This document shows, piece by piece, positions 8,606-10,617 of a stretch of 33,477 nt of DNA. Under the pieces are notes generated by a model. That model made no database searches. It was not told the DNA's origin and worked only from the letters and a program-made list of their open reading frames with translations. The position numbers and the translations under genes were made by a program. Origin of the DNA: a bacterium (lineage in GTDB: Bacteria; Actinomycetota; Acidimicrobiia; Acidimicrobiales; CATQHL01); the NCBI GenBank assembly GCA_026708055.1, contig JAPOVS010000085.1:1-33477 (forward strand), written 5' to 3'. Numbering within the stretch: the stretch's first letter is position 1; every line of letters starts with the position of its first letter.

Positions 8606-8929
8606 ATGAGTGTTCGACCTGCTGGACGCCTATTCGCCGTCGCGGCGCTCGTTCTCGCGCTTGCTACCGCATGCGGGTCAGCAGATGAACCGTCGCCACC
8701 GCCGACGACGGCCGAGCCGGTCCTCCCGAGCACCGAAGCGGACAGTGCGCCAATGGATGAGCCGTTGGAATCCGGAACCAGGCGGGGGACCCGCACGCCG
8801 CCCCTACAATTGGCGCGTGGACAGTCTGGACCGGGGCCGCGTCATCGAGATTCTCCGGGAGCACAGGGAGACGCTCGCCGAGCGATTCGGTGTGACGAGG
8901 CTTGCCCTGTTCGGCTCTTTCGCCCGTGA
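8606..8929 (+). pseudogene. Possible truncated lipoprotein gene
   Basis: An ATG opens a frame with a convincing lipoprotein signal: basic MSVRPAGR, a hydrophobic core FAVAALVLALA and the lipobox LATAC at residues 19-23, followed by a Pro/Thr/Glu-rich stretch. After about residue 52 the sequence becomes non-descript, arginine-rich and runs into the MNT gene in another frame. It looks like the 5' end of a lipoprotein gene cut off by the MNT/HEPN module. The same frame is open back to 8486 without a start. The rest of the gene-poor stretch 8445-8816 shows nothing else. Confidence 0.3.
8805..8810 (+). promoter_or_regulatory. -10 box for the MNT/HEPN pair
   Basis: TACAAT ends 6 bases before the GTG at 8817, with no ribosome site, pointing to a leaderless transcript like those of hipB and the DUF6036 pair. 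Confidence 0.5.
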
Positions 8930-9116
8930 TCAGGCCACCGAGGCGAGCGATGTCGACCTCCTCGTCGGCTTCGACGGGCCCGCCACGTCGAGGTCGTACT
9001 TCGGCGTGCAGTTCTACCTCGAGGACCTGCTCGGCCGACGTGTCGACCTCGTGACCACCAAAGCGCTCCGTCCCCGGTTCCGCCCGTACGTGGAGCGCGA
9101 GGCCGTGCATGTCTGA
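8817..9116 (+). CDS. MNT-type nucleotidyltransferase antitoxin
   Basis: A 99-residue minimal nucleotidyltransferase. The motif GSFARDQATEASDVDLLVGF carries the GSF...DxD signature (catalytic aspartates in DVD). In MntA/HepT pairs this enzyme adds nucleotides to a tyrosine of the HEPN toxin and silences it. The GTG at 8817 is chosen from the TACAAT box 6 bases upstream and because the family begins close to this point; the longer frame back to 8610 has no family similarity. It overlaps the HEPN gene by 8 bases. Confidence 0.82.
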   Translation: MDSLDRGRVIEILREHRETLAERFGVTRLALFGSFARDQATEASDVDLLVGFDGPATSRSYFGVQFYLEDLLGRRVDLVTTKALRPRFRPYVEREAVHV

Positions 9117-9468
9117 ACCCGACAGAGACCGTGACTGGCGGTTCTACGTCCAGGACATGGTCGAGTTCGGCGAGCGGGTGGCCGCCTACGTGGAGGGGTT
9201 GGATCAGCAGGCGTTCAAGGCCGACCAGCGAACCTACGACGCAGCGCTGCGCAATATCGAACTCCTAGGCGAGGCGGCGACGCATGTCCCCGAGAGCGTG
9301 CGTGCCGAACACCCGGAGATTGCTTGGCGCCAGATCGTCGGAACCAGGAATCGCCTGGCTCACGGTTACCTCGGCATCGACGACGACGTCATCTGGGACA
9401 TCATCCAGACCGACATTCCCGGTTTGCTCGACGCACTCCGGCGTCTCGCGGACGACGAGCGGGCGTGA
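9109..9468 (+). CDS. HEPN-domain toxin (HepT/DUF86-like)
   Basis: A 119-residue all-helical protein with the HEPN ribonuclease signature RNRLAHGY (R-x4-H-x-Y), the tyrosine being the residue modified by the partner MNT enzyme in characterised pairs. Helices before it (YDAALRNIELLGEAATHVP) match the DUF86/HepT family. HEPN toxins cleave RNA such as tRNA. The ATG overlaps the upstream stop, indicating coupling. The key residues are intact. Confidence 0.85.
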   Translation: MSEPDRDRDWRFYVQDMVEFGERVAAYVEGLDQQAFKADQRTYDAALRNIELLGEAATHVPESVRAEHPEIAWRQIVGTRNRLAHGYLGIDDDVIWDIIQTDIPGLLDALRRLADDERA

Positions 9469-9593
9469 TCCGGCTCCCCGGAATCCACGCAGGAAGACCG
9501 GGGAACGTTGAGTTGTCACCTGACGTATCTTGAGCAGCGCTTCGGCGAAGCGGTACGTTGAGCGGCTGGGCCGTGAAGGGAAGGAGTGACAGC

Positions 9594-10136
9594 GTGGACC
9601 GGGTGGTTCTCTACAGTCTGAACACGGAGGCGCGGACGCCGACTTGACAGGAGTGCTGCCGCGTTCGGGACTTCCTGAACGAGCACTCCGTCGAGTTCGA
9701 CGATCGCAACATCCGCCAGAGCAGCCACGCCCGCGACGAGTTGCTGGCGCTGACCGGGGACCTCGTCGTGCCGACGTTGATCGCCGGTGACCGCCAAGTG
9801 GTGGGGTTCGACGCCGCAGCACTCGCGGAGATCGCGGGCCTCCGGGCGCCGGACGTGCCGGCCGGGAGCGCGGCGACCGCCGCCGGCCCTCCGGGGAACT
9901 CCCTCGAGGCCGATCAGGGCCAGCGGGTCATCGCCTCCGGCGAGACCCTGGCCGACGACCTGCAGAACCTGCTGGGACGCATCAACGCGGAACTCGACTA
10001 CAACGTCGCCAAAGGCAGCACGCCGTTCCGCCAGGGGATGCACGACGGCCTGCGATTCGCCCAGGACGCCGTGGCGGACCTCTTGACGCGCCACGGCCAC
10101 ACCGCCGAGGTCGAGCCCCGGGACTGGGACTTCTGA
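9594..10136 (+). CDS. Candidate selenocysteine glutaredoxin-like protein
   Basis: Reading from GTG 9594 gives 180 residues if the in-frame TGA at 9645-9647 (codon 18) is read as selenocysteine. Before it lies strand 1 (VVLYSL). The TGA with the next codons gives U-Q-E-C, exactly where glutaredoxin and NrdH proteins have CxxC. Then come helix 1 (CRVRDFLNEH), strand 2 (VEFDDRNI) and the cis-proline region VVPTLIAGDRQVVGF. The C-terminal half (about 95-180) is an extension I do not recognise. AAGGAG lies 8 bases before the GTG, so the 5' part is a real translated start. A two-part stem-loop begins 2 bases after TGA. Without readthrough the thioredoxin fold would lose its active site. Alternatives are a nonsense mutation or a sequencing error of a Cys codon. 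It has no operon partner; the next gene is convergent. Confidence 0.68.
9650..9689 (+). promoter_or_regulatory. SECIS-like stem-loop after the UGA codon
   Basis: GGAGTGCT (9650-9657) pairs perfectly with AGCACTCC (9682-9689). Inside, GTTCGGG (9663-9669) pairs with CCTGAAC (9674-9680) over a 4-base loop, with one G-U pair. The hairpin starts 2 bases after the UGA. If the inner G-U and G-C pairs open, the loop begins with GG, the guanines favoured in bacterial SECIS loops bound by SelB. The spacing of about 22 bases from UGA to the apical loop is within the bacterial range. Confidence 0.6.
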
Positions 10137-10161: not shown

Positions 10162-10617
10162 TCAGGCTCCGGACCGGCGGACGAGGCGTGCGATGGCCTC
10201 GGCCGCGGCGGGGTAGCGGGATGCCAGGTCCGCCTCCACGCCCAACTCGAACCCGCTCTGATTGAACGGCGGCGCCATGGTGGTGCCGACGAGCGACCAC
10301 TCGCCGGTGGTGGCGGCTCCCATCCAGGTGCCGGCCGGGACGGCGACACAGGGTCGCTGGCCTCGCCCGAGGTCGTTGCCCAGGGTCGGTGCGGCGATGC
10401 TGCCGTCGGACGCCAGCAGGAGCATCTCCACCGCCGCGCCGGCGTAGTGGTGCCACAGCTCGGGCCCATCCTGGCGGTGCATGGCCGAGAAGTTGCCGGA
10501 TCGCATGACGTAGTAGATGGCCGAACTGTGCTCGTCGCGCCACGTCTCGGTGAAGTACCCCTCGTTGTCCGGCAGCAGCTCCAGACCGAGCAGGCCGATG
10601 ATGTCGGAGGCTCGCAT
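10162..10617 (-). CDS. Cupin_5 (DUF985) family protein
   Basis: A 151-residue protein with the DUF985/cupin_5 pattern: LLPDNEGYFTETWRDE, then SAIYYVM, then ELWHHYAGAAVEMLLL, VPAGTWMGA and a final SGFELGVEADL. The family folds as a single cupin barrel; its substrate is not established. The ATG at 10617 follows TAGGCT (10629-10624) by 6 bases, so the transcript is probably leaderless. It converges on the glutaredoxin-like gene with 25 bases between. No operon partner is seen. Confidence 0.82.
   Translation of the reverse strand: MRASDIIGLLGLELLPDNEGYFTETWRDEHSSAIYYVMRSGNFSAMHRQDGPELWHHYAGAAVEMLLLASDGSIAAPTLGNDLGRGQRPCVAVPAGTWMGAATTGEWSLVGTTMAPPFNQSGFELGVEADLASRYPAAAEAIARLVRRSGA

Follow-up and report, generated by a model that had tools for sequence, protein, structure and literature searches.

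The gene at positions 9594-10136 of the forward strand of the window very probably encodes a selenoprotein glutaredoxin with a fused partner domain. The window is the whole stretch of DNA analysed, 33,477 nucleotides in length, and represents contig C85 of a 3.9-Mb genome. The frame extends from GTG 9594 to the terminal TGA at 10134-10136, with an in-frame TGA at 9645-9647 (codon 18), and comprises 180 residues when read through the UGA. The family is an unnamed subfamily of Sec-glutaredoxins, and the decisive evidence for a selenoprotein is conservation together with the selenocysteine machinery. No Cys version was found among the members of the subfamily, a dedicated partner domain has become fused to the glutaredoxin in one lineage, and nearly always one importer accompanies the gene; through the combination of these three properties it can be tested directly what purpose Sec serves in a glutaredoxin. 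As the partner is in other genomes a separate neighbouring gene beside an amino-acid-type ABC importer, the whole looks like an undescribed selenium-dependent redox and transport system. The gene is also an example of truncation past the active site by standard annotation.

Gene structure and glutaredoxin domain

A Shine-Dalgarno-like AAGGAG, read directly from the sequence, is located at 9581-9586, 7 nt 5' of the GTG, where an earlier note on this DNA had placed a ribosome site; GGAG-like purine-rich stretches occur at the equivalent position in many relatives. The first in-frame start codon 3' of the UGA is TTG 9741, from which an ORF of 131 amino acids is obtained. Because of the position of this start codon a standard gene caller would lose the active site, and the truncation foreseen in the earlier note is what the ORF caller delivered.

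The glutaredoxin domain (residues 1-84, 9594-9845) contains the strand VVLYSL, the active site U-Q-E-C-C, the cis-proline in VVP60 and the motif VVGFD. Sec18 (9645-9647) occupies the first active-site position, followed by Cys21, the resolving Cys of U-x-x-C, and Cys22 (9654-9659), both of which are invariant. With the UGA read as Cys, residues 4-67 match the Pfam family Glutaredoxin (PF00462) with an E-value of 1.6e-11 and 44.7 bits, against a gathering cut-off of 22.9. This agrees with one continuous glutaredoxin/NrdH-type fold across the TGA, as had been proposed from the sequence. The proposal that the stop falls on the catalytic Cys position is likewise upheld: the family profile places position 18 on the N-terminal catalytic Cys of glutaredoxins of known structure ('NTC' in 7c10), a correspondence which rests on more distant glutaredoxins, since the subfamily has no Cys homologue. 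In Foldseek searches with the AlphaFold2 model the glutaredoxin domain matches NrdH and cGrx1, with NrdH of M. tuberculosis as top match. The full-length model is of moderate quality (pLDDT 74, pTM 0.44) and uninformative on domain packing. The two domains are connected by a low-confidence linker (9846-9887; pLDDT below 50 at residues 85-102), the length of which is variable among the fused homologues.

The nearest solved sequence is cGrx1 (PDB 7c10 and 7c12), which we take to be a native selenoprotein (profile E-value 7.7e-13, approximately 35% identity in the structural alignment). The best general family matches are the YruB-family and NrdH (TIGR02196 and TIGR02194), both of which are known as Cys proteins. 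Membership was rejected for the YruB-family (46-57 bits, cut-off 88.55), for NrdH (26-30 bits, cut-off 85.75) and for the mycoredoxins of NCBIfam (16.2 bits, cut-off 89.5). The NCBIfam UXX-star families NF041212, NF041211, NF041114 and NF047338 were rejected as well, with all scores far under the curated cut-offs (32.1 vs 66 for NF041212, further scores being 24.4 vs 100 and 13.9 vs 72).

Conservation of the UGA codon and selenocysteine machinery

Members were found in 22 genomes. Seven belong to the window's family, namely the window genome itself, five out of seven congeners sampled and one representative of a different genus; another 14 come from the same class, and one, G695, belongs to another class of the same phylum. 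Fused homologues from the six other genomes of the window's family are 64-93% identical. Codon 18 is UGA in all 22 genomes and Cys in none, within the motif ARTPT-U-QECCRVRD/E (NRTPT in G695). As the same UGA recurs in 22 independent genomes, a sequencing error for TGC or TGT at 9645 is excluded. The comparison of homologues that the earlier note had called for thus gave a divided answer: the residue at codon 18 is not random, being always UGA, and the Cys that had been looked for at this codon is absent from the members of the subfamily in the 22 genomes. A Cys orthologue at the Sec position was treated as a supportive, not an obligatory, criterion for a bacterial selenoprotein.

An independent scan of 84,980 species delivered 18 loci, and those for which a group is named originate from Acidimicrobiia or Acidimicrobiales MAGs. 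Weak matches in other orders (including L065-L075), with approximately 30-60 bits and mostly restricted to the glutaredoxin region, were taken as ordinary glutaredoxins. Two weak matches that were inspected (L028 and L029) have Cys at the active site, and the stop counted in them is the terminal one. Searches of phage records for the family found nothing, and plasmid records yielded only matches to the glutaredoxin region, in Paenibacillus.

Over the 14 codons 5' of the UGA, all pairs of the 20 distinct sequences differ by 0.41 synonymous and 0.13 nonsynonymous changes per codon pair, from which it follows that the stretch before the UGA is selected as protein. The window genome contains a tRNA-Sec (64.3 bits, cut-off 47), also reported by ARAGORN as SeC with anticodon tca, and selA, selB and selD, all above their cut-offs, so that the search for selenocysteine machinery suggested earlier had a positive outcome. 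A tRNA-Sec is present in 22 of the 22 carrier genomes. The selD gene of the window genome (G000:C40:60240; L018, L141) also contains an in-frame UGA, in the motif HGAGUAGK. In the class overall, tRNA-Sec was detected in 261 of the 395 sampled genomes; Sec use is widespread, and about one third of the genomes are without this tRNA.

It is very improbable that the UGA is read through by suppression as Trp, Cys or another residue instead of selenocysteine, given the tRNA-Sec of every carrier genome, the selA, selB and selD genes of the window genome, and a codon 18 that is the catalytic chalcogen site and fixed as UGA, never TGC. Still less credible is a genuine stop, with a 17-residue leader peptide and the unrelated downstream ORF (TTG 9741, 131 amino acids) as the gene: this is exactly what a standard ORF caller gives, but one frame is conserved on both sides of the UGA in 22 genomes with no indels nearby, the codons before the UGA are under strong protein-level purifying selection, the first in-frame start after it varies from +6 to +41 codons among the members, and the ORF from 9741 is without the active site. 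As a selenoprotein, the gene would have its UGA at 9645 decoded by SelB and tRNA-Sec, probably aided by the hairpin that overlaps and follows it, a role to which the conservation points.

This SECIS-like hairpin covers 9640-9698, its lower pairs taking in the UGA itself. In the outer stem, GGAGUGCU (9650-9657) pairs with AGCACUCC (9682-9689), and in the inner stem 9662-9669 pairs with 9674-9681, so that the two-part hairpin with an 8-base outer stem just after the UGA, described from the letters alone in the earlier note, is confirmed. Its minimum free energy (MFE) is -36.8 kcal/mol, with a z-score of -5.2 against dinucleotide shuffles. When 162 windows along the gene were compared with synonymous-codon resampling, the lowest values were found around the UGA (z about -4.1 to -4.7). 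A hairpin begins at or beside the UGA in every member, and in 17 of 20 sequences its energy is at or below the 4% tail of synonymous-codon resampling from the gene's own codon pool.

The bSECIS model, as given in PMC13188914, has a loop of 3-9 nt with G in the first two positions, an upper stem of 4-16 bp, a spacing of 16-37 nt and an MFE at or below -7.5. All 21 distinct sequences (20 from the class and one from the other class) conform to these constraints, some of them only once one or two apical pairs are opened, which costs up to 3.1 kcal/mol. The window sequence follows the G rule only with one closing pair opened (3.1 kcal/mol), because the apical loop of its MFE structure is ACUU. Hardly any variation is seen in the outer stem, and the register of the inner stem differs among subclades. 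A test for covariation in the hairpin gave no significant signal (a single compensatory change, inside the range of shuffles), because the flanking amino acids are invariant. Synonymous differences per codon pair 3' of the UGA amount to 0.24 in the first 14 codons, 0.16 in the next 14 and 0.32 beyond, a dip that points to constraint on the RNA. Synonymous conservation is strongest at +15 to +28 codons after the UGA (9690-9730 in the window, and in relatives), past the end of the hairpin. The window is GC-rich, and an equally strong fit to the SECIS model is obtained for 3.4% of all its TGA triplets, so that the hairpin by itself proves little and was rejected as stand-alone evidence.

The partner domain and the associated importer

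The C-terminal partner domain (residues 99-180, 9888-10133) carries the motifs PPGNSLxxDQ, ELxYNxAKG and GMHDGLRFAxDA, with 26 invariant columns in 17 sequences. It is predicted as a helical hairpin with a pLDDT of 82. Searches of Pfam and NCBIfam with the domain gave no significant match, and Foldseek found nothing at E ≤ 0.001. A known fold among the structures listed was also rejected on the basis of structural alignment with VIA-align, in which Z-scores of 5-7 to common helical hairpins (ferritin-like EncB, ribosomal proteins) represent background. In relatives outside the window's family the domain is a separate ORF, which is the case in 15 of the 22 genomes; it adjoins the glutaredoxin ORF in 14, and in G337 it opens the gene run that also contains the glutaredoxin, at a distance of approximately 3 kb. 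The fusion of glutaredoxin and partner was found in seven of seven genomes of the window's family, and only there. At locus L038 the two ORFs are kept apart by no more than a UGA and a brief in-frame sequence, which suggests that the fusion arose by stop loss. The extension of about 85 residues described earlier as unfamiliar indeed matches no Pfam or NCBIfam family; it is, though, not an odd tail of the protein but a gene of its own in relatives.

At all 12 unfused loci with long flanks (L038 and L040-L050) the glutaredoxin and the partner share a tight run of genes on one strand with a GlnQ-type ATPase; a permease of the HEQRo type and a binding protein of the SBP_bac_3 family also belong to it wherever the contig is long enough. 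The order at L040 is partner, ATPase, permease, binding protein and glutaredoxin, and at L043 the gap from the partner gene to the ATPase gene is 6 nt. The components score as a PAAT ABC importer, with SBP_bac_3 at 96.5, BPD_transp_1 at 81.0 and ABC_tran at 124.2 bits, all over the gathering cut-offs. Among the curated models, systems for cystine and glutamine match best, though far under the cut-off; assignment as a cystine ABC transporter by the NCBIfam equivalogs was rejected (permease 159 vs 300, binding protein 76 vs 312). At L043 (9174-9713) and six other loci the binding-protein gene is followed by a gene of the VOC/glyoxalase family (epimerase-like).

The binding protein (L040 5013-5855 and orthologues) keeps the ligand Arg, with Glu in place of the usual Asp and Arg in place of a Thr, at positions which we take to have the canonical pocket roles. 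Given the Glu and Arg replacements, a ligand other than the standard amino acids is conceivable. The nearest solved sequences of the binding protein are cyclohexadienyl dehydratase ancestors.

Among the 395 sampled genomes of the class, 15 carry the glutaredoxin, and the importer is present in all 15, with an orthologous binding protein in 14; in G171 the ATPase, directly downstream, is the only visible part of the importer, the rest being masked by N. Outside this sample the importer was found in G003, G004, G007 and G695, and as a fragment at a contig end in G002, and no orthologue was detected in G005 and G008. The window genome has an intact copy on another contig (C33), the binding protein of which is 75% identical. 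Among the non-carriers in the 395 genomes the importer occurs only in G319. This genome (96% complete; contig C69, L117) has the importer and is without the glutaredoxin, the partner domain and tRNA-Sec, a pattern that would fit a joint loss with Sec use.

It is rather likely that glutaredoxin, partner and importer are functionally linked. A substantial though smaller chance is given to a Sec-glutaredoxin of general redox housekeeping, for which the vicinity of the importer is incidental and the C-terminal domain serves only for stabilization or dimerization. Such a role would suit the window's own fused gene, which is not beside the importer, as well as G008 (93% complete) and G005, in which the fusion is present and an orthologous binding protein of the transporter was not detected. 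Against it stands the distribution within the 395 genomes, where the importer accompanies every carrier and a single non-carrier, and the retention of the importer even when it is on a separate contig from the glutaredoxin, as in the window genome (G000), G003, G004, G007 and G695.

Proposed mechanism and comparison with known systems

The protein would combine a dithiol-type glutaredoxin active site, Sec18-Gln-Glu-Cys21(-Cys22), with a fused helical-hairpin domain of about 80 residues. By analogy with the glutaredoxin family, the selenolate of Sec18 would attack a substrate disulfide, Cys21 would resolve the resulting mixed selenenylsulfide, and the enzyme would be recycled by a thiol or thioredoxin-reductase system. 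The strict association of the helical domain with the glutaredoxin, and their fusion, suggest that it probably holds or presents a redox partner or substrate. Judging from co-occurrence and from its place in the operon, the pair most likely works for the dedicated PAAT ABC importer, and in what is the weakest step of the scheme it would reduce or handle an imported, cystine-like solute containing sulfur or selenium; that the solute is of this nature is doubtful. Tentative, too, is the view that Sec-glutaredoxin, helical-hairpin protein and PAAT importer may form a previously undescribed selenium-dependent uptake and processing system in Acidimicrobiia and at least one further class of their phylum. 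In such a system a solute of disulfide, diselenide or metal-thiolate type would be imported and then handled by a Sec enzyme never replaced by a Cys form, and the two cytosolic parts would have been fused in one lineage.

It is unlikely that Sec and Cys together serve as ligands of a metal or metalloid brought in by the importer instead of acting as a disulfide reductase. The adjacent second Cys of U-x-x-C-C is unusual, the replacement of the canonical pocket Asp and Thr of the binding protein by Glu and Arg would be compatible with such a ligand, and metal-ligand roles of Sec are suggested for SAO and UXX-star selenoproteins in PMC13188914; but in its glutaredoxin fold, its cis-Pro and the spacing of its dithiol the protein corresponds to an ordinary oxidoreductase, and among the neighbouring genes searched none for mercury or arsenic resistance was identified.

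The known Sec-glutaredoxins come from a limited set of bacteria, and a description of this subfamily, of the partner domain or of the importer link was not found in the open-licence literature. A 2026 review (PMC13188914) lists U-x-x-C Sec-glutaredoxins as experimentally known, and gives Grx1 of Clostridium (Alkaliphilus) oremlandii as an example, citing Kim et al. 2011. The selenoprotein glutaredoxin of the window has in common with cGrx1 the glutaredoxin fold, the first-position Sec, the U-x-x-C motif and a VVGFD-type motif. It differs from the clostridial Sec-glutaredoxin in that its family has an invariant RTPT-U-QECC with the second Cys, the helical partner domain and the association with the importer, and is distributed over Acidimicrobiia and a second class of this phylum. 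The UXX-star families are glutaredoxin-like selenoproteins with Sec at the same position as in the window protein, whereas their motifs are UxxT or GxGU, according to the entries available in PMC13188914, in place of UxxCC.

The Sec-assisted organometallic (SAO) system also combines an ABC transporter with a thioredoxin-fold selenoprotein, SaoT being thioredoxin-like (PMC13188914). In SAO, as described there, the transporter subunits carry Sec, whereas here the importer is of the PAAT type and Sec is found only in the glutaredoxin among the parts examined. SAO membership was rejected, as the binding protein is without an in-frame stop in all orthologues.

The fused gene has neighbours of other kinds in the window. 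Directly upstream (8610-9468) is a pair consisting of an MntA-like nucleotidyltransferase and a HepT-like RNase (type VII toxin-antitoxin), with matches that are clear, yet under the NCBIfam equivalog cut-offs. Downstream, a Cupin_5 (DUF985) gene on the reverse strand (10162-10617) is oriented convergently to the selenoprotein gene; the congener G002 (L140) also has a cupin neighbour, with two cupin-like genes located side by side.
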